DNA of 64,000 nucleotides from Polytrichum commune. Its lineage: Eukaryota; Streptophyta; Polytrichopsida; Polytrichales; Polytrichaceae. The stretch is taken from positions 23,996,001-24,060,000 of the forward strand of contig OX485806.1 of NCBI GenBank assembly GCA_950295325.1, in the 5' to 3' direction. A program made the translations under genes and the position numbers. Under the pieces are notes generated by a model. The model had not been told where the DNA came from and searched no databases. It saw only the letters and a program-made list of their open reading frames with translations. This document shows positions 9,232-52,235 of this stretch, one piece after another (position 1 is the first letter of the stretch; each line of letters starts with the position of its first letter).

Positions 9232-10746
9232 GTCGAAGTAGCCTGGTCGATGGGGAACACTGGTTGCTGCTGCTGTGTTACCATGCGCATGCTAGTGGAA
9301 GACCCTTCCATTTTGGTAGGAGTTCCTGTCTTGTATGCACTGGTTAAACTGCAATATGTGTGTTACATCTTGTGAGGATATTGTGAGTAGGATAGGGAAA
9401 TAATTTATTGGTAGCAGTAATTTCTAGAAAGAGATGTATTTTCCTTATCAAATGGGACTCCTACAGCGTAGGATCAACGATCACCCCTAGTGTCGTAGCC
9501 TAGTCGATGGCGAACATTGGTTGTTGCTGCTTTGTTACCATGCGCACGCTAGTGGAAGCCCCTTCCATTTTGGGAGGAGTTCATGTCTTATATGCACTGC
9601 TTAAATTGCAATGTGTGTGTTACATGTTGTGAGGATATTGTGAGTAGGATAGGGAAATAATTTATTGGTAGCAGTAATTTCTAGAAAGAGATGTATTTTC
9701 CTTATCAAATGGGACTCCTACAGCGAAGGATCAACGATGGCCCCTAGTGTCGTAGCCCAGTCAAGGGCGAACACTAGTTGCTACTGCTTTGTTACCATGC
9801 ACACGCTAGTGGAAGACCCTTCCATTTTGGTAGGAGTTCATGTCTTATATGTATTGATTAAACTGCAATGTGTGTGTTACATCTTGTGAGGATATTGTGA
9901 GTAGGATAGGGAAAATTTTATTGGTAGAAGTAACTTCTAGAAAGAGATGCACTTTCCTTATCAAATGGGACTCATACACCGTAGGATCAATGATCAGCCC
10001 TTGTGTCGTAACCTAGTCGAGGGCGAACACTGGTTGCTACTGCTTTGTTACCATGCGCACGCTAGTGGAGGACCCTTCCATTTTGGTAGGAGTTATTGTC
10101 TTATATGTATTGGTTAAATTGCAATGTGTTATATCTTGTGAGGATATTGGGAGTAGGATAGGAATATTTTATTGATAGCAGTAACTTCTAGAAAGAGATG
10201 CCTTTCCTTATCAAATGGAACTCGTATAGCTAGGATCAACAACCGGCCCTAGTGTCGTAACCTAGTCGATGGCGAATTGGTTGCTACTTTGTTATCATGT
10301 GCACGCTAGTGGAAGACCCTTCCATTTTGGTAGGAGTTCATGTCTTATATGTATTGGTTACACTACAATGTGTTACATCTTGTGAGGATATTGTGAGTAG
10401 GATAGGAAAAAAATTATTGGTAGCAGTAACTTTTGGAAAGAGAAGCACTTTCCCTATCAAATGGGACTCCTACTGCCTAGGATCAACGATCAGCCATAGT
10501 GTCGTAACCTAGTCGATGGTGAACTGGTTGTTACTTGTTGCCATGTGCACGCTAGTAGAAGACCTTCCATCTTGGTAGGAGTTCTTGTCTTATATGCATT
10601 GGCTAAACTACAACGTGTTACATCTTGTGAGGATACTATGAGTAGGATAGGAAAATTTTCACTAGTAGCAATAACTTTTGGAAAGAGATGCATTTTCCCT
10701 ATCCAATGGGACTCCTACCACCTAGGATCAATGATCGGCCCTAGTG
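9232..10746 (+). repeat. Tandem array, six units of about 246-260 bp
   Basis: Units begin with GTCGTAGCC or GTCGTAACC followed by a TAGTCGA block (first unit variant) at 9232, 9492, 9749, 10005, 10254 and 10501. The last ends near 10746. Each carries CACGCTAGTGGAAGACC, a CCTTCCATTTTGGTAGGAGT-like block, TTGTGAGGATATTGTGAGTA and TCAAATGGGACTCCTA. Unit length falls along the array: 260, 257, 256, 249, 247, 246. No protein family is evident. Short frames recur because the unit itself recurs. Confidence 0.9.
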
Positions 10747-10760
10747 TGGGCATGGTTATA

Positions 10761-11205
10761 CACTCTACACTCCGTAGTATCACACATGTGGCAACCAAAG
10801 TGCACGTAATACTACGGAGTTTTGTAGTGTTAACATGGATGCGTGATACCATGGAATTAGTGTAGCATGTAACATTATGGAATAACACAAAGGAGATGTG
10901 AGGACAATTTGAATTCAATCTCCTGTCACTTGTGCTAGTGTGGTCCACTCCACTTGGCCTTCCCGGGCGATGTGGCGGACGCATGCACCAACATTCAACA
11001 AGTGGCATAAGAAGAAGACGAAGAATAATAAGAAGATGACACTCCACATGTTGACACATGGCGCAATGCGAAGGTGTGGGTTGTATTCTTGGGTGATTTG
11101 CATAAATGACAAATTTCATGATATAAGGGAGAGAAATGTGACAATAAGGAGTGAGATTTGAACTACGAACATCCGTTCCATGGGGTTTTGGGATATTAGA
11201 GAGTG
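10761..11205. mobile_element. TA-flanked MITE, right end lost in the N gap
   Basis: It starts CACTCTACACTCCGTAGTAT right after a TA. Internal words GTGGCAACCAAAG, ATTAGTGTAGCATGT and GAGAGAAATGTGA match 22283-22602 in order. The sequence stops at the gap just where the second terminal repeat should begin (…GATATTAGAGAGTG). It is longer than the other copy because of an insertion around 10905-11040. No coding capacity. Confidence 0.65.
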
Positions 11206-11405
11206 NNNNNNNNNNNNNNNNNNNNNNNNNNNNNNNNNNNNNNNNNNNNNNNNNNNNNNNNNNNNNNNNNNNNNNNNNNNNNNNNNNNNNNNNNNNNNNN
11301 NNNNNNNNNNNNNNNNNNNNNNNNNNNNNNNNNNNNNNNNNNNNNNNNNNNNNNNNNNNNNNNNNNNNNNNNNNNNNNNNNNNNNNNNNNNNNNNNNNNN
11401 NNNNN
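11206..11405. other. Assembly gap (200 N)
   Basis: Exactly 200 N, likely a placeholder of arbitrary size. Any frame crossing it is meaningless. It separates the MITE from the C-rich retroelement remnant. Confidence 0.99.
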
Positions 11406-13430
11406 CACACCTCCACACACCCACTGGCTCCACCCCATGCATCCAATGGCTTCAAAACTAATATCAACAATACCACAACTCCACACTAGTCCCCCTCCTC
11501 AAGACTTCATAACTGAACTAACATGTCTCACCCAAAGATACACAACAAAATTACCCCCATCCTTTTCTACCTCTATTATGTTAAAACAAACCATGACCTA
11601 CAACACTCCCCCCCCCCCCCTCTCTCCATACTAGCATTCATCATAGACACATTCTCACTCACCCGTTCATACTACTCTAGCCCACTAATATGTCCCTCAA
11701 ACTCCACAACTACCACTACCCATACCCACAAGACGCAATCTTTGGCGCCCACAATAACACCTACTCCACCTTGTGGGTGGGGCGAGGTTTAGCCCACCCT
11801 CTGGACTCCCAAACAATAGTAGAAACACTACATTGGGCCAAAATGGCAACATACACAGACCATGGGGCCTTTATCATTCTCATCCTACCACACAAATATT
11901 GGTGCAACAAAAGGCACCCCTTCACCAACCCCCACCAATACACCCATGTGCTTGCCCATATACATCAACCCACATACGCTCAAATACTCCCCACAAACAT
12001 GTTTCCCATCATACCTAGCCAAAACCAAACCCAAAATCGTCACTATCCTATGCATACACCAATTCGAGACATTATCCCCATTTTTGCCCCCCCCCCCCCC
12101 CCAAAAAAATAAAAATAAAAATCAATGTTGCATTCCACTTAACCAAACTCCCCCTCGCACAAAAATCCAACCCACTGGACACACCCACCAAGGCCAACGT
12201 ATCCAAGAAATGGAAACACACCCTACCCCCTCTTAGTACTATGAATGTCCCATCATCCATACCTATCACACAAACAACTCCTTCATTCCCCCACAACATG
12301 GCGATGAAGGCAATGTTGACCTAGGAATATACCATCCCATTGGCAACACCCACCATGCCTATAGACTCCCCGGAAGACACAATATCCTACACGCAGAATT
12401 TATAGCTATCTATGTTGCCCTCTATTCTACCAAAGACAATACCACACACTCATATATCTTCATAAACAACCTCAACTCCATCTACCTCATCTACAACCAC
12501 CTCTGTTGAACCCTCCGCCAAACCCTCCTCCTAACAAATCACCATGACAAATTACTTATACAAGTCTTAATCCGATGACTAACACAACACACATCCCCCT
12601 CACACTCCCAAAAATCCGCACGCACTCGGGAATACTCAACAACAATATCGCCAATAGGCTTTCTAATTTTGGTGCCAACAATCACCCGCCATGAACTACG
12701 CCTCCAATACAAATCACAAATACCACCCCTTTTGGCATCCAAAATCCTTACGGAATACCCCCATACCACACCCATACCACACCTCAAACCTTACATACAC
12801 AAGGAATACACCTGCCAACTCACAACCACAATGTTACCCAATACCTATACCTATACCTATACCTATATATATATATAGATAGCAAAATGGCTCAACAATC
12901 CACTAGTCCACTCCTCCCTCTCCAACCCTTTATGGTTAACACTCCAATGCACAGACATACAAATCACACAAACCCTCAAACTATGACATGGACAATACAT
13001 GGGCAACCAAAGAGAACATATCATCTGGCCCACCCAATTCTCTTTTTCCTCTGCAACTTTTGCCCACTACAAGAAATCGACACATGTCTCCACCTTCTCT
13101 CCATGTGCATGAATATCACCCCCAACAATATCCAAACAACCAAACACAATCATGATGAATGCAAGCACCCATGCAGGGAATACTCATAGAACATAATCCC
13201 AAAAAATGGCTATACCCATGCTTCTACACCACAAGCCCATGCCACTACCTCACCAAACTCAAACATGACATCCTTATCATCACCATCACCTCCCCAAAGA
13301 AAACCACACACTACACCACCCAAAACCCAAGCTTAAAATTCATTGAGTTCACATTGTGTCAAGAACGTGACCCCACCAACACAACCCAACGGGGAAAAAC
13401 TAAAATACCAACCCTTACATACCAATCCAA
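11406..13430 (+). pseudogene. Decayed non-LTR retrotransposon, C-terminal part with RNase H and Cys-His region
   Basis: On + the frame is broken many times, but motifs appear in a sensible order. Near 11720-11850 is FGAHNNTYSTLWVGRG with a downstream LHWA, a block I associate with some non-LTR polyproteins (recall, uncertain). Near 12386-12421 is LHAEFIAIYVAL, like the ExxA segment of an RNase H fold. Near 12605-12660 is PKIRTHSGILNNNIANRL, like the RNase H HSG..GN..AD.L segment with the last Asp replaced by Asn. Near 12973-13018 is LKLWHGQYMGNQ. Near 13050-13107 is CNFCPLQEIDTCLHLLSMC, a Cys-Cys-His-Cys finger typical of the LINE C-terminus. Frames switch between blocks. The + strand is very poor in G and rich in C, unlike its neighbours. 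An RNase H downstream of the RT would place it outside the ordinary L1-like LINEs nearby. Confidence 0.6.
12839..12882. repeat. CCTATA / TA microsatellite
   Basis: Four CCTATA-type units followed by a TA run, embedded in the C-rich LINE remnant. Confidence 0.85.
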
Positions 13431-28097: not shown

Positions 28098-29303
28098 CTA
28101 ACACTAATCGTCAAAGAATTAAAAATTAGTGTTGAGCAAGGTAGGGTGATAACAACACTAAATAACCTATTTAGTGTCGTTCTTTGCGTCGTTTTCACCT
28201 TGCTCATGGATGAGTTTACATAGACACCAAGGATCCCAACATAGTCAAGTCAAGTCAAGCCAAACCAAACCTACCTTGTTGCCTACTTCAGTCATGTGAC
28301 AGTGTGCAAAGGAGAGGAAGGGCAATAAGAGTTACAATTAATTACTGTGGTGCTTGAGTCTGCAGCTCTTCCATGTGATGAAGAGACATGTGTCAAAGAA
28401 TTGAAAATTAGTGTTTAGCAGGATAGGGTGGTAACAACACTAAATATGATCAAACACTAAATATCCTATTTAGTGTCGTTATTTGCGTCATTTTCATCTG
28501 CTCATGGATGAGTTTACATAGACACCATGGATCCCTACATAGTCAAGCCAAGCCAAGCCTACCTTATTGCCTACTTCACTCATGTGGCCTTGTGCAAAGG
28601 AGAGGAAGGTCAGTAATTATGACAATTACTGTGGTGCTTGAGTCGCAACTCTTCCATGTGATGAAGAGATGTGTGTCAAAGAATTGAGAACTAGTGTTGA
28701 GCAAGATAGGGTGGTAACAACACTAAATATGATCAAACACTAAATATCCTATTTAGTGTCGTTCTTTGCGTCGTTTTCACCTTGCTCATGGATGAGTTTA
28801 CATAGACACCATGGATCCCTACATAGTCAAGTCAAGTCAAGCCAAGCCAAGCCAAGCCAAGCCTACCTTATTGCCTACTTCACTCATGTGGCCGTGTGCA
28901 AAGGAGAGGAAGGGCAATAATTGTGACAATTACTGCGGTGCTTGAGTTTACAGCTCTTCCATGTGATGAAGAGACATGTGTCAAAGAATTGAAAATTAGT
29001 GTTGAACAAGATAAGGTGATAACAACACTAAATATGATCAAACACTATTCAAATATCCTATTTAGTGTCGTTCTTTGCGTCGTTTACACCTTGCTCATGG
29101 ATGAGTTTACATAGACACCATGGATCCCTACATAGTCAAGTCAAGTCAAGTCAAGCCAAGCCAAGCCAAGCCAAGCCTACCTTATTGCCTACTTCACTCA
29201 TGTGGCCGTGCCGTGTGCAAAGGAGAGGAAGGGCAGTAATTGTGACAATACAATTACTGCGGTGCTTGAGTGTGCAGCTCTTCCATGTGATGAAGAGACA
29301 TGA
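28098..29303 (+). repeat. Tandem array of ~284-309 bp units, four starts plus partial ends
   Basis: Units begin ACATAGACACCATGGATCCC at 28218, 28516, 28800 and 29109. Each includes a pentamer stretch of AAGTC/AAGCC whose copy number grows along the array, GGAGAGGAAGGGCAATAA, TCTTCCATGTGATGAAGAGA, and a block with CACTAAATATCCTATTTAGTG. That last block is a short inverted repeat resembling the ends of the nearby TTTAGTGT MITEs. Coding frames inside are not conserved between units. Confidence 0.85.
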
Positions 29304-42245: not shown

Positions 42246-42250
42246 ACATC
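42246..42250. other. Target-site duplication, left
   Basis: ACATC immediately before the LTR. The same five bases follow the right LTR at 52231-52235. Confidence 0.9.
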
Positions 42251-44145
42251 TGTGAGGCCAAACCCCCCACCCTTAAGCGTCCGTAGTCCGAGTAGTGGGT
42301 TTGGGCTCACATTCCTCCGCGGTATTGGATTTGGACTTGGATGAGTCCATAGTGCAAGGTTCACCCTTCAAGTGGTCTTGGATTTAACTTTGGTCTTTGC
42401 TTCCTTTGTCTTGCCATCGCGAGAGTGCTCCACATTCTCCATTAAGTTGTGCACGTGGTTTCTTTTTAAAGAGAGGATGCAAGTGTTAAAAAAAACACTA
42501 TTCTCTATAGTCAATCTCAAATACATTTACTTGTGAAAGCCACACATAACACTAACTAGCATAATATAACTAACTACTTGTCTATGAGCTAATTAGGTAG
42601 GCTATCTACTAAGCTCCTTCATGAACCCATCTCTTTACTTTCTAATTACATAAACCTAGCTCCTTCATAAACCCAGCTTCTTCATAAACCCAGCTTCTTA
42701 GCTTCTAACTAAACAAACCCAGCTCCTTCATAAACCCAGCTCCTTCATGAACCCAGCTCCTTAGCTTCTAACTAAACAAACCCAGCTCCTTCATAAACCC
42801 AGCTCCTTCATGAACCCAACTCCTTAGCTTCTAACTAAACAAACCCAGGTCCTTCATAAACCCAGCTCTTTACTTTCTAACTAAACAAACCCAGCTCCTT
42901 CATAAACCCAGCTCCTTCATGAACCCACAACTTTGTAGTTGTAATCCCCAACTACCTCACTAATTATTCAAGCCCTTAACTAATCTTCCTACCTAATTTC
43001 CCTAATTCTACTAACAACCCCTTTCTAATCACACAATTCTTCTCTAATCCTAAAATCCTAAAGTCCTAGAGAGGAGAGGGGGAGAGAGAATTTCCTAACT
43101 TCACTAAGACTAACTAATCCACACAAGTATATTTTTGCACTCATCACAACATCAAGTGCTCAACTCTTAAACATGGAACTTGCAACCACGTGTATTCAAA
43201 ACATGAACTTAAAGTACCACAAATTGGAATCATGAATTAACTTTAAAATCCTTCACGTCAACACTAATTCTACCAAGAGGTCAAGCCCTCTTCAAGGCTA
43301 ACAAGCCTTGGCTCTCAAACTAAAAACTAAGCACACACATGTGCTCCAATATGGCTTCCCACACCCACACTTATAACTCGTGGGGTGCCTTGGAGCACAA
43401 AGGAAAGAGAGAGGATGAGTGAGGGAAGAATGAGGGATTATATAGTAAGCTTGAGGGGGTGAGCACCCTCAAGGCTCACGATAAGCCCTTGAGATTTCCT
43501 CCTACTTAGTAGGCGCCAATCCTATCTTCTAAGCCTTCCTCCTTCAAATGATCAACAAGGATCCTAATTCGAACATTTAACTAGCCTTGGCTTTCTACCT
43601 ACCACACTTTACCAAACTTGGGATGCTTCAACCCAAACTTAGCCTCCTTCGCTTTCCGCCGCCATAACTTTCTCCCCTTACTTTCCCAAATCGTCGCTCA
43701 CCACTTAATTCAAACCACGATGCTTAACTTGTGATTTGATTGGTGCTTTGAGAATTTGCTTATCCTCCACCTTGCATTCTTCCTTGGGCCTTCCCCATTA
43801 AGTGGCCATGATGAGGTGGTCCACTTGTGCGCTCCATGTGATCCTCTATTCATCCCAATTCGAATGCACTTGCCTCTTGAGTCACTTTGGTTGTCTCCAT
43901 CCATTTGTACTAGCCTACTCACTAACTACTCAATCCAAGTTCTCCTTACCTATCCTCATTCACTCAAATCCTTCCGAAGGTAAAAACACAATAACAACTC
44001 ACATCCTAGCCTCTTACAACATGGTACTTCTAAGACTAACATTTCACTCTTTTTATATTTTTGTGAAGTAACATGCTACTTCAAAGTGCATCAACTAACG
44101 TTTCAAGGGTCTAAGACTAAATGTGGGCACCCTTTTGGGCTCACA
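42251..44145 (-). repeat. 3' LTR of the retrotransposon
   Basis: 1,895 bases, same as 50336-52230. It holds a minisatellite of CCCAGCTCCTTCATAAAC-type words with a ~62-base higher unit at about 42595-42930, and a stem-loop at its minus-strand 3' end (42251-42311). Open frames at 43710-44071 recur identically in the other LTR and are not genes. Confidence 0.95.
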
Positions 44146-44203
44146 TAATTGGCGACCATCGGGGGATGAATCCAAACATCTCTTGCTCCAAGGGTAAGTT
44201 GCC
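44146..44203 (-). other. 58-base junction between truncated pol and 3' LTR
   Basis: On the minus strand the normal integrase reading is lost directly after the stop, and no purine-rich tract precedes the LTR. Read on +, the junction starts TAATTGGCGACCATCGGGGG, which looks like a tRNA primer-binding site next to an LTR. It may be a 5'-leader piece of another element joined in reverse. Confidence 0.5.
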
Positions 44204-47200
44204 TTATCCATTGAAGTGACCGCCGCAAGCGCTATCGTGGCAAGCGATTAAAATCGCTTCAACCTCCGTTTTTGACACGCATCGTTGTAAAATACCATCG
44301 GACCCCCTTCTAAACAACCTATGGCCCACTACAACAAATTGCCTACTATTTACCCTCACCTTCCTTCTCTCTTCTTTTGTCCACTCTTTGGGCAACTTGT
44401 GGGTTGTTAGAAATTCCACTATGCCCGCATACCACTCCGGTGTAGAAGTGACCACAAAGAGGCTATCATCTACTAACATATCATTTACCGGATTTTTTCC
44501 TATCTCCTCCGACAACCTAGACAAGTGGTCCGCTTGTAAATGCATACGACCCGGTTTATATTCCACCGTGTAGTCGAATTCTTCTAATAACAAAACCCAC
44601 CTAGCTAACCTACCACTTAACTCCGCCTTGTTAATTAGATACTTGATAGCCATGTGGTCAACAAAAAATACAACCGGGTTGCACATGAGGTAATGCCTAA
44701 ACTTTTTAACGGAAAACACCATGGCTAGGCACTCCCTCTCCGTTGTAGAGTAGTTTCTTTCGGCGGGGGTCAATTGCTTACTCGCATAAGCTATAGGTTG
44801 ATCCTTCTCTTTTTCTCCCGTTGCTTGACAAAGCGCACTCCCTATTGCCACATTACTAGCATCACAATAGACGTGAAAAGGTTTACCCCAATTGGGTGGT
44901 ATCAACACCGGATAGGTGCTCAACCTATCCCGCAATTCCTCAAAGGCTTTTTGACAAGCATCCGTCCACTCGAATTTGACATCCTTTTTGAGCAAATGGG
45001 TAATGGGCACCGCTATCTTTGAAAAATTAGGAATAAGTTCCCGGTACCATCCCACATGTCCTAACAACTTAGAGATCCCCTTGGAATTGGTTGGAGTTGC
45101 CAAGTCGCTTATGGCCGCAATCTTATCCGGATCGGGTTCTCTACCTTTCTCACTAACAACATAACCCAACAACACTCCCTTATTCACTCCCAAAAATGTC
45201 TTATCCGGGTTCAATGCTAACCTCATCTTCCTACACCTAACCAATGCCTCCCTAACACAATGTAGGTGATCATCCACATTACTTTGTGTGCTAAAATCGT
45301 CCACAAAGACGGTCATGGATTTGAACAACAAGTCGGTGAAGATATACATTACTAATCGTTGGAAAGTAGCCGGGGCATTACATAACCCAAATGGCATCAC
45401 TACCCACACAAAAGTACCCCAAGGTGTAGTAAAAGCCGTTTTATGGATATCTTGGAGGGCTATGGAAATTTGATTATAACCCGCATACCCATCCATAAAG
45501 GTATATCGCGAATGACCTCCAACCTCCTCAAGCAACAAGGTGATAAAAGGTAAGGGGAAGTGATCCTTTTGTGTGCACGAATTCAATTTCCTATAGTCGA
45601 CACAAACCCTTAATTTCCCATTTTTTTTCTTTACTAAGACCATAGGAGAAACCCAATTCGTGATTTCCACCGGCTTGATAAACCCGGCCTTCAATAACCT
45701 TTCCAATTCCGCTTTCACCAACAATTGCAATTGAGGATTCATCCTCCTCTCCTTTTGTCTAATTGGCCTCGCCCCCGGAATTAAAGGAATCCGGTGCTCT
45801 ACCATTTCCCTAGGAATTCCCTTAAGCTCATCGTAGGACCATGCAAAAGTATCACTAAACTCATCCACCAAATTGCTATACTCCCTAACCTCTTTCTCCC
45901 CCAATTTGGAGCCCATCTTCATTTGTCGGGTTTTTCCATTCTTTAATTTCACATCCACGTACCGCCAATCCGCTTCCGACACATGTGCTTGTTCCTCTTT
46001 GTTCCGATACCAATCGGAAGGCACATTGGGGTAATCTTTCACATCTTGACCTACAACTATCCCCGTAGACGTGGTCTTGAAATGTAAAGGCTCCTCCAAT
46101 TTCGATGACTCAATAATCACATCCTCCTCTTGAGTCCCATCTACATGAATTAAACTAACCTCACCCTCTTCCACGTCATCTACCCAAGGTGTTAACCCAC
46201 CGCTAACCCACTCTTTCTCGGTGAGCACCTCACATGGCTCCAACAATGAGCCCTCTCCTAAACTAACACTAGGAAATTCACTCCCTAAGCCTACTTGGTG
46301 AAATGTAACCATTACATCAACCTCGGACTCGGGGTACTCCCTTAGCCATTGGGCATAATCCCCATTATCCCCATAATTGTAAAAATTAGGACCTAGACTT
46401 CCCGAGCCCGAATCTATAACAACCCTTTGACCTTCGGGATGGACGACTCCCACCAATGCCTTGCCAATCTCATTCTCGTTTAAGTCATCAATTTCCTTCT
46501 CCAATGGCAAATACATCTCCTTCTTCATCCATCCTTCTAATGAACCAATGGACACTATGACCCTATTACCCTCCGGACCATAAGTGATGGATGGTTTAGG
46601 TCCACCCCAATTGACCATAGCATTCGCCATCCGCAACCAAGGCCTACCTAGCAAAATGGGGAAGGTGTCCTTGTTGGAGTGCATTTTAATGACATGGAAG
46701 GTGACCAAGTACTCCTCACCTCCCGTAGTCATTCTACAATCCTTGATCATCCCCAAAGGCGTAGTCGAACTTTGATTTGCCATATTTATGACCAAAGGTG
46801 AAGGCCCCGTGAGTCCAAGTCCCAATTTTTTCATAGTATCCTCCGGTAGTATATTTAGACTACTCCCTCCGTCGACTAGCACATTAGGAACCACCTTATC
46901 TACTATAACAACTTCTATTTCTATAGCTTTCACGTCTCTTCCACCTTGTGATTGGATCCTAGCGGCTATTTTAGCTTTCACCTTCCTCATCCTCTTGTGT
47001 ACCGGCATTCCCTCCTTTAATGTTTTCCTTGCCGTGGGTGAAATTTCCAATAGTTGGCCGAAAGTAATATCCGCCTTGAGTGTACTAAGGTCCGCCCACA
47101 AGTCGTACCCGGTAGATCTTTCCACCTTAGAATTACCCACTACGTCGAATTCGTCTACGGGAACCCCCGGTCCTTCCCATTCACCCACATCGCTATTATC

Positions 47201-49426
47201 CAAGTCATGTACCGCATTAGTCCTCTCCCTATCTTGTAAAATTATATTTTCCCTCTCCACATCCTTAGTAGCTCTTCTAGCTACCCTATCCAACTCGGAG
47301 AGATTAATCTCTTCATCCGAAGAGTAATTTCCTTGCTCTCCTATTCCTACCTCCAACGGGGCATCCCCTCTCCTAGCCCTAGTAGTTACCGCTAGTGCAG
47401 GTGCTTCTTCAACCACACCCTTACCCTTCACTAACTCATATGTAATAGCATTGGTGTGAGGAGGCCATTGACTTTGCTCCTCTCCAATTCTCGTTGGGAG
47501 AGGAAGCATGTCATCACATGTGGCCTCCAACACTCCATCCATGAACCTAACATCTTGGGAGTTAGATGGTCCCGGATCCGTTGGAGGCGCTTGTCTCCCG
47601 TTACTACCATTAGGTGGAACTCCTTGTCTATTTTGTATTGGAATGTAACCGGTTGTAGTTTGCAAGCCCGCCGGTGGATGAAAAGTTTGCCTAGCATTAC
47701 TATGGTCATAGTATAAGTTAGGTGGCCTAAGTTCATTGGCCGGTACTCCTTGTGGCCTAGCACCTCGCATATTATCCCTTGCTTGTTGTTGTGGATTAGC
47801 CACCGGGTAAGGGACATTAATTATTTTGTCCGGTTGGCGACACGTATCCGAGGGATGATTTCCTCCACAATTGCTACAATTAAACTCTTGACCTTCGGAC
47901 CAACATTGTCCTTGAGCGTGCCACCTTCCACAAAAGGGATGAAATTCCTTCTTCTCTAAATTTTGGCCACCTTGCCCTCTAGGTTGTGGTCCTCTATTGC
48001 TTCCATTTCCATAGTGAGGTGGCGCTTGACCTCGTTGATTTTGTTGAGGTGGGTTACCGTTTCCTCTTTGGTCACGGTTTTGTCCACTTCTACAAAATTG
48101 ACGCGTGTGGCCCGGTTGGCCACATTGGACACACCATAATCCGGAAGAATGCCTACCCGACTCAACCGGGGGTGGAGGCCCCGGTTGTTGACTCCGGATC
48201 ATTAATGACATTTGATCCGTGAGGCTTTGCATTTGTTTTATCATAGCCTCTTGGAATCCTAGTTGGCTAGCACCTAGTCTTCTCTCAACCTCCTCCAAGT
48301 GTGGATCCGTTCTAGGGGCCGGTAGTGCCAAAAGAGGTGCCGGTTCCCTAACCGCTAAAGGTCGGGGACCGGTGTCCACAATGGCATATGGAATTTGGTT
48401 CTCATACTTAGCGGGCTCTACCGCTACCACCCTAGGGCGTATGGGGATGAATTGTGGGATCAATTCATCCTCCCTTCTCCATAGCCTTTCGTGATCTTTA
48501 TCCAAGTTTTCAATATCTCTAGCCGCACGCTTGGCATCCGCCAAGGTCAAGGGATTCCTTTCTAGAACACCCCTAATAGTTCCGGACTTAAAAAACCCTT
48601 GAATGAAAAATTGCTTTAGCGTGTCGTCGTTGAGCATGGTACCCACAAATCTAGTGCACACTAAATCAAACCTCCTAATGTAAGCCGAAATTTCTTCCTC
48701 CCTTCCTTGCTTCAATGACGACAATGCCCTTAATGCGGTACTTTGACCCACTTCCGGCCTAAATTCGTTAAGAAACTCCCTTTGTAATTGTTCCCATCCC
48801 CTAAAATGTCCCTCGGCATGATCCCGATACCATTCATAGGCTTCCCCCTCTAGAGTGGTAGGAAACCACACTAACCAATAACCCGGGTCGGTTATGAGGA
48901 AGCTAGCCAACCGTTCGATATACCGTTCCATGTGCCGAGAGGGGTCCTCATCCTTGGTCCCATAAAATTTAGGGAGATGAGATGGCATATCCATCGCCGC
49001 TAAATTTTGTGGAACCACAATTGGTAGGCCTCTTGGCCTAACCAATGGGTCTATTGGAGGTATAGGAGGTATGGGCGGAATTGGGGGTATGGGTGGTGGA
49101 TCCATCCCCCGTTCCTCGGCCATGGTGACCGGTGAACTATTCAACAATCCCCTATCAACTTCTACCGGGAATTCTTCTCTAAGTGTGTAATTTTCCGAAG
49201 AAGTTTCACCACTCAATTTGGAGGGAGTGATCTCCTCTTCAAGTTGAGCTCCAAGTTCTAAGGTGTCTAGAATTGACCTAGTCCTAGGTTCGACGTTCAA
49301 ACAACTCTCTATTCTAACATTATCTTGTTCTAATCTATCACTGATTTTAGAGGACCGCCTCTTTCGAGTAGATTTCTCTAGTCCTACTATCAAACTTGGT
49401 TTTTGTGAGCGAGTCCTACCTTGCAT
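44204..49426 (-). CDS. Gag-protease-RT-RNase H polyprotein, truncated before integrase
   Basis: 1,740 codons without a stop. Residues 110-125 are a PPI repeat. About 150-320 is a retrotransposon gag domain. CCHC-type fingers lie at 432-445 (CVQCGQPGHTRQFC) and 517-529 (CSNCGGNHPSDTC). The aspartic protease covers about 835-945, with VDGGSSLN at 851-858 (Gly in place of the usual DTG or DSG middle residue, as in some plant gypsy lineages) and ILLGRPW at 924-930. The RT covers about 1220-1440, with MDGYAGYNQI at 1311-1320 and the catalytic FVDD at 1374-1377. RNase H covers about 1515-1637, starting at YCDAS. The frame then enters the integrase zinc region (CHDSACGGHF, 1729-1738) and stops two residues later. 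It therefore codes for virus-like particle, processing and reverse-transcription functions, but cannot integrate. An open frame this long in decayed surroundings supports recent activity. The Met at 49426 is the first in frame; its use is not proven. Confidence 0.93.
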   Translation of the reverse strand: MQGRTRSQKPSLIVGLEKSTRKRRSSKISDRLEQDNVRIESCLNVEPRTRSILDTLELGAQLEEEITPSKLSGETSSENYTLREEFPVEVDRGLLNSSPVTMAEERGMDPPPIPPIPPIPPIPPIDPLVRPRGLPIVVPQNLAAMDMPSHLPKFYGTKDEDPSRHMERYIERLASFLITDPGYWLVWFPTTLEGEAYEWYRDHAEGHFRGWEQLQREFLNEFRPEVGQSTALRALSSLKQGREEEISAYIRRFDLVCTRFVGTMLNDDTLKQFFIQGFFKSGTIRGVLERNPLTLADAKRAARDIENLDKDHERLWRREDELIPQFIPIRPRVVAVEPAKYENQIPYAIVDTGPRPLAVREPAPLLALPAPRTDPHLEEVERRLGASQLGFQEAMIKQMQSLTDQMSLMIRSQQPGPPPPVESGRHSSGLWCVQCGQPGHTRQFCRSGQNRDQRGNGNPPQQNQRGQAPPHYGNGSNRGPQPRGQGGQNLEKKEFHPFCGRWHAQGQCWSEGQEFNCSNCGGNHPSDTCRQPDKIINVPYPVANPQQQARDNMRGARPQGVPANELRPPNLYYDHSNARQTFHPPAGLQTTTGYIPIQNRQGVPPNGSNGRQAPPTDPGPSNSQDVRFMDGVLEATCDDMLPLPTRIGEEQSQWPPHTNAITYELVKGKGVVEEAPALAVTTRARRGDAPLEVGIGEQGNYSSDEEINLSELDRVARRATKDVERENIILQDRERTNAVHDLDNSDVGEWEGPGVPVDEFDVVGNSKVERSTGYDLWADLSTLKADITFGQLLEISPTARKTLKEGMPVHKRMRKVKAKIAARIQSQGGRDVKAIEIEVVIVDKVVPNVLVDGGSSLNILPEDTMKKLGLGLTGPSPLVINMANQSSTTPLGMIKDCRMTTGGEEYLVTFHVIKMHSNKDTFPILLGRPWLRMANAMVNWGGPKPSITYGPEGNRVIVSIGSLEGWMKKEMYLPLEKEIDDLNENEIGKALVGVVHPEGQRVVIDSGSGSLGPNFYNYGDNGDYAQWLREYPESEVDVMVTFHQVGLGSEFPSVSLGEGSLLEPCEVLTEKEWVSGGLTPWVDDVEEGEVSLIHVDGTQEEDVIIESSKLEEPLHFKTTSTGIVVGQDVKDYPNVPSDWYRNKEEQAHVSEADWRYVDVKLKNGKTRQMKMGSKLGEKEVREYSNLVDEFSDTFAWSYDELKGIPREMVEHRIPLIPGARPIRQKERRMNPQLQLLVKAELERLLKAGFIKPVEITNWVSPMVLVKKKNGKLRVCVDYRKLNSCTQKDHFPLPFITLLLEEVGGHSRYTFMDGYAGYNQISIALQDIHKTAFTTPWGTFVWVVMPFGLCNAPATFQRLVMYIFTDLLFKSMTVFVDDFSTQSNVDDHLHCVREALVRCRKMRLALNPDKTFLGVNKGVLLGYVVSEKGREPDPDKIAAISDLATPTNSKGISKLLGHVGWYRELIPNFSKIAVPITHLLKKDVKFEWTDACQKAFEELRDRLSTYPVLIPPNWGKPFHVYCDASNVAIGSALCQATGEKEKDQPIAYASKQLTPAERNYSTTERECLAMVFSVKKFRHYLMCNPVVFFVDHMAIKYLINKAELSGRLARWVLLLEEFDYTVEYKPGRMHLQADHLSRLSEEIGKNPVNDMLVDDSLFVVTSTPEWYAGIVEFLTTHKLPKEWTKEERRKVRVNSRQFVVVGHRLFRRGSDGILQRCVSKTEVEAILIACHDSACGGHFNG

Positions 49427-50317
49427 TCCATAAGAATCGATCGACCCTCACTTGACCACACATAATCCTAGCAATTCCCCTCTTAATATTTTCACTTGTC
49501 TTGGTGTGGTTATAATTTTTTTAGGAGGTGAGGAAAAGAACCTGCAAGCCCACTTAGGTGAAAGAATCCCAATAGAGGATAGGCATGTTCATGTTAATTT
49601 TTTGGTTAAGTCGGAGCATCACCTCCGCACCTTCCCGCAAATTAACATTCACCACAATACCGATTGTGAGGGGGTGACCTTCCGAGTAGATTATGTTAAA
49701 AGTCGAGGCTTCACCCTTCAACTTCTCACACCATCCACAATTCGGGAATTACCCTCTACAACGGATAACAACAATCACGAGTACAAAAGGCATTCCTTAA
49801 TTAGTTAATGAGTTCACTTTGAAGAAATAAACATACCTTGAGCAATCGCATCCCCCTGTGAGTTAGCACTCCCCTCAATCGTGACTCAATGTAACAACAC
49901 CATAAACTTTGTGAAATATTAATTCAATCTAGAGCATGAAATGACAACTCCCAAAACTTTGAGACTCACCCCGAGGTGAGTGTCAAAGTTCAATGTCCTA
50001 AGGTGAATTTACCCTCTAATGTTTTAATGAGCTACTCGGTTATAGGTTCCTTTTAAATTCTTAGCAAATTCCCAAAAAGGTTGAGGACGTACCTTCACCG
50101 CGCTCCTTCCTCAAAAATGAATTTGCGTAATTGACAATGCAATTCATTCCAAGGAATAGTTGAAATACAATGAATTCAAATGTAACCCACAGAGAGAATA
50201 CTTACCGAGTTTCGGGTGCTCCTTCCCTTCTCTCAAGTTTGTGTCTCCAATTTTTCCTAGTTGCCTCCAAGTCTCCTAGTCGCCTCCAAGTCTTGTAACT
50301 ACCTTCCGCTTCGCTCC
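49427..50317 (-). other. Untranslated leader of the retrotransposon
   Basis: About 890 bases between the primer-binding region and the gag start codon, with no conserved protein on the minus strand. An antisense + frame of 118 codons (49452-49808) lies here. I see no motif in it and do not call it a gene. Confidence 0.6.
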
Positions 50318-50335
50318 CGGCGGACGCACCAATTA
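50318..50335 (-). promoter_or_regulatory. Primer-binding site
   Basis: On the minus strand the LTR end CTCACA is followed by TAAT, then TGGTGCGTCCGCCGGGAG (starting within the last bases before 50336). The TGG start (pairing with a tRNA CCA end), the short spacer and the position fit a gypsy primer-binding site. The tRNA is not identified; the pattern loosely recalls the Asp-type site of Athila elements. Confidence 0.65.
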
Positions 50336-52230
50336 TGTGAGGCCAAACCCCCCACCCTTAAGCGTCCGTAGTCCGAGTAGTGGGTTTGGGCTCACATTCC
50401 TCCGCGGTATTGGATTTGGACTTGGATGAGTCCATAGTGCAAGGTTCACCCTTCAAGTGGTCTTGGATTTAACTTTGGTCTTTGCTTCCTTTGTCTTGCC
50501 ATCGCGAGAGTGCTCCACATTCTCCATTAAGTTGTGCACGTGGTTTCTTTTTAAAGAGAGGATGCAAGTGTTAAAAAAAACACTATTCTCTATAGTCAAT
50601 CTCAAATACATTTACTTGTGAAAGCCACACATAACACTAACTAGCATAATATAACTAACTACTTGTCTATGAGCTAATTAGGTAGGCTATCTACTAAGCT
50701 CCTTCATGAACCCATCTCTTTACTTTCTAATTACATAAACCTAGCTCCTTCATAAACCCAGCTTCTTCATAAACCCAGCTTCTTAGCTTCTAACTAAACA
50801 AACCCAGCTCCTTCATAAACCCAGCTCCTTCATGAACCCAGCTCCTTAGCTTCTAACTAAACAAACCCAGCTCCTTCATAAACCCAGCTCCTTCATGAAC
50901 CCAACTCCTTAGCTTCTAACTAAACAAACCCAGGTCCTTCATAAACCCAGCTCTTTACTTTCTAACTAAACAAACCCAGCTCCTTCATAAACCCAGCTCC
51001 TTCATGAACCCACAACTTTGTAGTTGTAATCCCCAACTACCTCACTAATTATTCAAGCCCTTAACTAATCTTCCTACCTAATTTCCCTAATTCTACTAAC
51101 AACCCCTTTCTAATCACACAATTCTTCTCTAATCCTAAAATCCTAAAGTCCTAGAGAGGAGAGGGGGAGAGAGAATTTCCTAACTTCACTAAGACTAACT
51201 AATCCACACAAGTATATTTTTGCACTCATCACAACATCAAGTGCTCAACTCTTAAACATGGAACTTGCAACCACGTGTATTCAAAACATGAACTTAAAGT
51301 ACCACAAATTGGAATCATGAATTAACTTTAAAATCCTTCACGTCAACACTAATTCTACCAAGAGGTCAAGCCCTCTTCAAGGCTAACAAGCCTTGGCTCT
51401 CAAACTAAAAACTAAGCACACACATGTGCTCCAATATGGCTTCCCACACCCACACTTATAACTCGTGGGGTGCCTTGGAGCACAAAGGAAAGAGAGAGGA
51501 TGAGTGAGGGAAGAATGAGGGATTATATAGTAAGCTTGAGGGGGTGAGCACCCTCAAGGCTCACGATAAGCCCTTGAGATTTCCTCCTACTTAGTAGGCG
51601 CCAATCCTATCTTCTAAGCCTTCCTCCTTCAAATGATCAACAAGGATCCTAATTCGAACATTTAACTAGCCTTGGCTTTCTACCTACCACACTTTACCAA
51701 ACTTGGGATGCTTCAACCCAAACTTAGCCTCCTTCGCTTTCCGCCGCCATAACTTTCTCCCCTTACTTTCCCAAATCGTCGCTCACCACTTAATTCAAAC
51801 CACGATGCTTAACTTGTGATTTGATTGGTGCTTTGAGAATTTGCTTATCCTCCACCTTGCATTCTTCCTTGGGCCTTCCCCATTAAGTGGCCATGATGAG
51901 GTGGTCCACTTGTGCGCTCCATGTGATCCTCTATTCATCCCAATTCGAATGCACTTGCCTCTTGAGTCACTTTGGTTGTCTCCATCCATTTGTACTAGCC
52001 TACTCACTAACTACTCAATCCAAGTTCTCCTTACCTATCCTCATTCACTCAAATCCTTCCGAAGGTAAAAACACAATAACAACTCACATCCTAGCCTCTT
52101 ACAACATGGTACTTCTAAGACTAACATTTCACTCTTTTTATATTTTTGTGAAGTAACATGCTACTTCAAAGTGCATCAACTAACGTTTCAAGGGTCTAAG
52201 ACTAAATGTGGGCACCCTTTTGGGCTCACA
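50336..52230 (-). repeat. 5' LTR of the retrotransposon
   Basis: It begins on the minus strand TGTGAGCCCAAAAGGGTGCC at 52230 and ends at 50336. As 5' LTR it should carry the promoter. I could not pick out a confident TATA box. It matches 42251-44145 in length and in all frames compared. Confidence 0.95.
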
Positions 52231-52235
52231 ACATC
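52231..52235. other. Target-site duplication, right
   Basis: ACATC, matching 42246-42250. Confidence 0.9.

Follow-up and report, generated by a model that had tools for sequence, protein, structure and literature searches.

Plus-strand synthesis primed from a polypurine tract is described as common to retroviruses and long terminal repeat (LTR) retrotransposons in the available part of PMC5371799. The same text gives yeast Ty3 a 12-nt polypurine tract adjoining U3 and a bipartite primer-binding site (PBS) for its minus-strand tRNA. The subject of this study is an integrase-deleted Ty3/gypsy element in a 64,000-nt stretch of the Polytrichum commune genome, here called the window (contig OX485806.1, positions 23,996,001 to 24,060,000). 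Like Ty3 and Ty1, for which the available part of PMC5371799 covers the bipartite PBS and recycling of the polypurine tract, this element has a short tRNA complementarity at its end and a PBS that is not renewed from the tRNA. We propose, at somewhat less than an even chance, that its lineage may have given up the polypurine tract and may be primed by two host tRNAs, tRNA-Gly for the minus strand and tRNA-Arg, annealed to the minus-strand DNA, for the plus strand, with template switching onto the second of these making internal deletions. If this is true, a still-moving lineage (young copies, identical LTRs) with a tRNA copy in place of the polypurine tract would be an exception to polypurine-tract priming. 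It would also show how an end of the complementary DNA (cDNA) can be re-specified, in a system that is directly testable.

A tRNA copied into DNA next to an LTR has been reported in one other setting. In the available part of a human immunodeficiency virus (HIV) study (PMC12220202), a reverse-transcribed tRNA-Gly with its CCA lies on the outer side of the 3' LTR, and its authors link it to deletions. That case and the window lineage have in common a mature tRNA copied into DNA, a retained CCA and a connection to deletion. In the HIV clone, which was cultured, the tRNA sequence lies outside the 3' LTR, whereas here it lies inside, is inherited by a lineage and is the apparent source of a deletion filler. 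No tRNA-derived plus-strand start is described in the available portions of the literature searched within one open library.

Among plant elements, the closest in layout are the non-chromovirus Ty3/gypsy groups (OTA, Phygy, Selgy), which, in the available part of the survey PMC6317226, share with the window family the order gag-protease-reverse transcriptase-RNase H-integrase without a chromodomain match. Phygy and Selgy also have a compact internal region almost filled by the polyprotein, as here, a likeness of layout alone. The additional RNase H of the Tat kind known from plant non-chromoviruses in that source was not found in the window family. The commonest PBS types in the survey are tRNA-Met, Arg, Lys, Asp and Asn, a set that does not include tRNA-Gly, the primer type of the window family; the survey records a polypurine tract in most elements.

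Structure of the window element

The element lies on the minus strand, and its parts are as follows.

42246..42250, no strand: target site duplication ACATC, one side
42251..44145, minus strand: 3' LTR of 1,895 bp containing 17/46/63-bp tandem repeats; identical to 50336-52230
44146..44149, minus strand: spacer ATTA (4 nt) separating U3 from the CCA of the tRNA-Arg-like stretch; ATTA, GTTA or ATAA in 31 further loci
44150..44212, minus strand: stretch resembling tRNA-Arg(ACG), with a terminal CCA, where a polypurine tract would be expected, filler included; local alignment score 76
44204..49447, minus strand: gag-protease-reverse transcriptase-RNase H frame (Pfam), integrase cut short within the zinc region; 1,740 codons long when counted from its first ATG
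44205..44212, minus strand: 8-nt filler AATGGATA at the integrase deletion junction, an exact tRNA-Arg continuation; not at this place in relatives L003 and L004
50314..50331, minus strand: PBS TGGTGCGTCCGCCGGGAG, 18-nt complement to tRNA-Gly(TCC) plus CCA
50336..52230, minus strand: 5' LTR, 1,895 bp, identical to the 3' LTR
52231..52235, no strand: target site duplication ACATC, other side

Several of these features had been described in an earlier note on this DNA, made from the letters alone, and its description is accurate. The two LTRs are equal in length and free of differences, which over 1,895 sites sets a 95% upper bound on divergence of about 0.16%. They begin and end TG..CA (TGTGAG...CTCACA), and the perfect ACATC duplication is present on both flanks. 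The frame has 1,747 codons from stop to stop, and the reported 1,740 when counted from the first ATG (residue 8). Retrotrans_gag, RVT_1 and RT_RNaseH all exceed their Pfam cut-offs, and an aspartyl protease match falls just short of its own (24.1 versus 24.3 bits). No Pfam integrase domain was matched in the frame, the last 198 residues of which were searched a second time. The C-terminus reads ...CHDSACGGHF-NG-stop, with the stop two residues past the start of the zinc region and 58 nt from the 3' LTR, as claimed; the 'NG-stop' is encoded by the 8-nt foreign filler and not by integrase sequence.

The PBS begins 4 nt (TAAT) past the 5' LTR (U5). A tRNA pattern yielded 17 places in the genome, 16 of them tRNA-Gly-like, with the anticodon TCC read by eye. 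Ten of these 16 end in CTCCCGGCGGACGCA and complement the PBS exactly once CCA is added, and the other six are one base off.

TG..CA LTRs with a 5-bp duplication, the domain order and a tRNA PBS beside the 5' LTR place the element in Ty3/gypsy (Metaviridae). The order is gag-protease-reverse transcriptase-RNase H in the window copy, which lacks integrase, and reverse transcriptase-RNase H-integrase in the relatives L003 and L004. An additional archaeal-type RNase H, as in the Tat lineage, was found neither in the window frame nor in L003 or L004; only the RNase H region linked to reverse transcriptase matched. A polypurine tract beside the 3' LTR is common in Ty3/gypsy without strictly defining it, and here its place is taken by the tRNA-Arg-like stretch. 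An inverted 3' LTR, suggested by the antisense PBS-like end, is ruled out, both LTRs having the same orientation and identical sequence. The 17/46/63-bp tandem array in the LTRs (window 42612-42925 and 50697-51010) varies in length and sequence among family members.

A tRNA-Arg copy at the 3' end

On the sense strand, the sequence before U3 reads ATGGTCGCCA-ATTA, and the CCA of the tRNA-like stretch ends 4 nt upstream of U3. Read on the minus-strand DNA, this end is CTCACA-TAAT-TGGCGACCAT, the same layout as CTCACA-TAAT-TGGTGCGTCC at the PBS. No tRNA gene was found with an acceptor stem exactly matching the element 3' end. A looser pattern for tRNAs with a similar acceptor end gave 12 places, eight of which are tRNA-Arg with ACG at the anticodon position. 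Aligned to tRNA-Arg(ACG) plus CCA, the window stretch has a local score of 76, which none of 2000 shuffles reaches (best shuffle 32). A genome pattern able to detect a tRNA-Arg(ACG) gene followed by a genomic CCA matched no such gene, so the CCA of the element points to a mature tRNA as its source.

The pattern ATGGTCGCCA-NTWA-TGTGAG occurs at 418 places in the genome, and its reversed control at none. No polypurine tract before the 3' LTR was found in the window element or in related families; the 3' end is not purine-rich, and in six loci checked the 200 nt preceding U3 contain no run of at least 9 purines. These comparisons show that the lineage has inherited, just inside its 3' LTR, a copy of the 3' portion of mature tRNA-Arg(ACG) together with its CCA. 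Related elements were sought in viral contigs, with none confirmed there.

Conservation in related families

Related families were sampled with an integrase motif using a codon that excludes most of the window family. It occurs at 52 places, and families with the other codon lie outside this sample. Nineteen of the 52 are in C4 41.8-59.0 Mb, as if older relatives persist there, perhaps in a region of low recombination. Forty were read, 20 as loci and 20 as 850-nt pieces, and 33 of these hold the integrase C-terminus. A tRNA-Arg-like stretch ending 4 nt before TGTGAG, or a one-base variant of it, is present in 31 of the 33. One of these (L046) belongs to the window's own family, which leaves 30 of 32 outside it, and L067 retains only the beginning of the stretch, which is broken. 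The families are divergent: across the 32 rows used for a tree (the 31 and L003), integrase DNA identity has a median of 70.5% and a minimum of 62% (L066 versus L003).

The other end of these elements was compared in nine upstream stretches. The exact 18-nt PBS is present in four (L069, L072, L075 and L076, from three families), a degraded match in L070, and none at guessed positions in the remaining four. In family L035, the start of U3 was confirmed against the start of the 5' LTR, and the insertion has no clean target duplication. To the right of the L035 3' LTR, the flank (L082, C2:42917650-42918050) reads TAATTGGTGCG, which repeats 11 nt from the start of the LTR/PBS boundary, and continues as unrelated sequence. 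Either an end was integrated here without trimming, together with part of a tRNA-Gly copy, or a tandem LTR array has left a remnant.

Changes per site were counted on a FastTree of the integrase stretch for the 32 rows. The last 10 nt of the tRNA-like stretch have 0.7 changes per site, tRNA positions 27-65 have 2.67, and codon positions 1/2/3 have 1.77/1.12/5.53. The last 10 nt thus have far too few changes relative to the rest of the stretch (Poisson 7e-6). Transitions that keep a wobble pair with tRNA-Arg make up 33 of 58, where third codon positions would predict 42.5% (p = 0.019, post hoc). Departures from the tRNA-Arg gene are frequent at positions 26, 34 and 37, with G at position 34 in 10 and T in 20 of the 32 rows. 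Mature tRNA-Arg can be modified at these positions (m2,2G26, I34, m1G37), and inosine is copied as G. As a suggestion only, the departures might reflect modified bases of the mature tRNA.

The integrase deletion junction

Compared with full-length copies, the window copy has lost 1,028 nt and has 8 nt in their place; beyond these, the sequence leading to the 3' LTR is what family members normally have there. The 8-nt filler AATGGATA extends the tRNA-Arg homology exactly, giving a 13-nt match CAATGGATAAGGC, whose first C is also compatible with the integrase side. It occurs nowhere else in the window element or in L003, and it is not present at the deletion place in the full-length L003 and L004. 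A filler that continues tRNA-Arg and is not in L003 or L004 argues that the deletion brought new tRNA-Arg sequence with it. In the simplest case, reverse transcriptase would have switched template onto a real tRNA-Arg and back.

Allowing up to 3 mismatches, the junction is present at two places in the genome, the window and C4:1890782. A search for AATGGATAAGGC followed by ATGGTCGCCA within 25-45 nt also returns two places, which are the same two deleted copies. The earlier note was partly right about this element: its account of integrase loss stands, and it overlooked that a polypurine tract is missing, that the 3' end derives from tRNA-Arg and that the filler is of tRNA origin. The junction sequence, read as above, would account for the integrase deletion.

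Plus-strand priming

Target duplications directly abut the LTRs in both deleted copies, so the plus strand must start within a few nucleotides of U3. The tRNA-Arg-like stretch lies at this position, and priming of the plus strand by tRNA-Arg is what we infer from it. In the proposed mechanism, the minus strand would start from tRNA-Gly(TCC) at the conventional 18-nt PBS. A packaged tRNA-Arg would then anneal to a second PBS on the minus-strand DNA and prime the plus strand, such that the 3' end of a tRNA, lying 4 nt outside the LTR, would define each end of the cDNA. The integrase deletion would have arisen while the tRNA-Arg-like stretch of the genomic RNA was being copied: reverse transcriptase would have moved to a real tRNA-Arg molecule and, after about 8 nt more of tRNA-Arg, jumped back into the integrase gene. 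We lean slightly towards this account in full, that is, an integrase-deleted copy inserted in trans, a plus strand primed by tRNA-Arg and a deletion made by a template switch on tRNA-Arg.

Several observations weigh against this account. A primer cut from the genomic RNA would end at the same CCA. Perfect pairing with tRNA-Arg is limited to the last 10 nt, the T-arm part being eroded, and the conservation of these 10 nt does not significantly exceed that of second codon positions (0.13). Position 66 of the tRNA is a gap in the alignment of every one of the 32 rows, as a single capture in their common ancestor would suggest. The exact ATGGTCGCCA is present in 24 of the 31 stretches and altered in seven, three times within the CCA itself (TCA in L030, CTA in L057 and L060) and four times elsewhere in the last 10 nt (L059, L061, L063 and L066). 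L052 holds the integrase C-terminus and no tRNA-like stretch, and seven of the 40 loci, having no integrase C-terminus, are uninformative on the 3' end. Finally, a search of four fetched loci for a conventional LTR element, as a positive control for polypurine-tract detection, found none.

The plus-strand primer might instead be cut from the element's own RNA, with RNase H sparing the tRNA-like stretch or cutting at it after the CCA. The stretch would then substitute for a polypurine tract, and its tRNA-Arg sequence would be a relic. This fits a CCA-ended stretch that belongs to the genomic RNA and has a strongly conserved end, and the common loss of position 66 points to vertical inheritance. 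However, the 3' end is not purine-rich, its conservation tracks the tRNA acceptor end, and changes lean weakly towards keeping the tRNA pairing. The deletion junction also gained new tRNA-Arg sequence, most simply from a real tRNA-Arg template at that place. The filler thus suggests that a real tRNA-Arg is near the 3' site during reverse transcription, which favors a tRNA-Arg primer over a self-derived one without proving it. We regard the self-derived primer as unlikely, yet serious enough to compete with priming by tRNA-Arg.

Alternatively, the stretch could work as a folded RNA, for example in packaging or in recognition of the 3' end, with priming at some other, unseen site. Anticodon-arm pairs are kept in 86% of cells, with parts of this arm and of the T-arm conserved. 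The T-stem pairs in only 62%, however, and Rfam finds no tRNA in the window stretch or in three related loci. Covariation for a tRNA-like fold is no higher than in shuffles (74.1% paired versus a shuffled mean of 74.8%, in 24 rows including the tRNA), which speaks against a conserved RNA fold of the stretch. The start of U3, moreover, has to adjoin the plus-strand start. A role as folded RNA is therefore improbable.

Probable mobilization of integrase-deleted copies

The Ty3/gypsy family of the window copy is young and carries integrase. A 551-nt query spanning the 3' end of the frame was scored against 40 of 1,614 candidates, and the counts that follow are lower bounds. Two of the 41 rows match the whole query, 38 stop at the deletion point (query 1-288, all at 100%) and one matches the LTR part only. 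Among the 38 relatives without the junction, 37 have a stretch of integrase length before the normal 3' end, 33 of them at 1,025-1,028 nt by the pattern of the 3' untranslated region (UTR) and four by the end motif at an equivalent distance; the remaining one has none. Full-length relatives, which the earlier note had asked for, thus exist in number. In the two that were read (L003 and L004), the frame stays open across Integrase_H2C2 and rve. On C7, LTR matches at 39268285/39277466/39286647 are spaced 9,181 twice and those at 25937558/25946661/25955764 are spaced 9,103 twice. This equal spacing suggests tandem LTR-internal-LTR-internal-LTR arrays of full-length relatives.

The second deleted copy, at C4:1890782, is flanked by the duplication GAGGC and by sequences that differ from those around the window copy. 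Its LTRs are identical over 1,965 bp (330/330 and 1,696/1,696 in two overlapping pieces) and are of a different type from those of the window copy, which lies about 22 Mb away on the same contig. An identical junction in two insertions with different duplications and flanks implies that the deletion is older than at least one of the insertions. Both duplications are 5 bp, as integrase leaves, which argues that integrase was supplied in trans. The integrase-less form is half-autonomous in the sense of insertion after integrase loss, given two insertions with one junction and different duplications. Most likely, the integrase-less form was inserted at least once with integrase acting in trans, unless the junction was spread by gene conversion, and full-length relatives presumably supplied the integrase to the window copy. 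This would be a natural case of trans-supplied integrase.

The earlier note had reached the same idea, movement with a relative's integrase, from the window copy alone. The conclusion gains support from the second insertion; the inference from a single copy was unsound, because a deletion arising after insertion would look alike. One finding that the note said would refute it, a deletion confined to this copy, is not what is seen, by the narrow margin of one other copy. An amplified integrase-less sub-family sharing one deletion end point is rejected, with two places against 302 in the genome that have the family 3' UTR pattern at up to 3 mismatches.

Non-autonomous plant LTR elements such as BARE-2, LARDs and TRIMs lack gag function or coding sequence. 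Like the window element, all rely on relatives for their missing functions; the window element differs in lacking integrase only and in being represented by two copies.

The relationship of the two deleted copies is not straightforward. For a comparison over 6,123 bp, 13 full-length copies were fetched and 11 were used after two interrupted ones were dropped. Two results speak against simple descent. The deleted copies differ from each other at 19 of 6,123 sites, against 19-27 between the window copy and the full-length copies and 12-23 for the second copy, and beyond the junction they share no private base relative to the 11. With similar distances to full-length copies and no private shared bases, their descent is not that of a simple clone, and clonal descent of both from one backbone is unsupported. 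Recombination with full-length relatives likely explains the mosaic, given one shared transversion and the different LTR types. None of the seven relatives compared, from 39 other rows, has all the private leader bases of the window copy.

These same features, no common private base outside the junction and different LTR types, could mean that gene conversion gave the second copy its junction, in which case neither insertion would have required integrase in trans. Such an event must transfer a 1-kb deletion across about 22 Mb of one contig while both LTR pairs stay identical, and the mosaic is equally explained by template switching between co-packaged RNAs. We consider gene conversion very improbable as compared with insertion in trans. 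Still more remote is the possibility that one genomic copy was scarred by ordinary end joining and that its filler matches tRNA-Arg by chance: end-joined breaks often carry filler sequences, but an exact 8-nt continuation has a chance of about 1.5e-5, AATGGATA is found nowhere else in the element or L003, and the junction is present in two insertions.

Additional observations

Two features of the window lie apart from the element. Within 10715-11485, a run of N inside a minus-strand frame (200 N in the whole window) may mark an assembly gap. Tandem repeats with units of about 257 bp and about 300 bp are located at 9238-10747 and 28160-29179, respectively.

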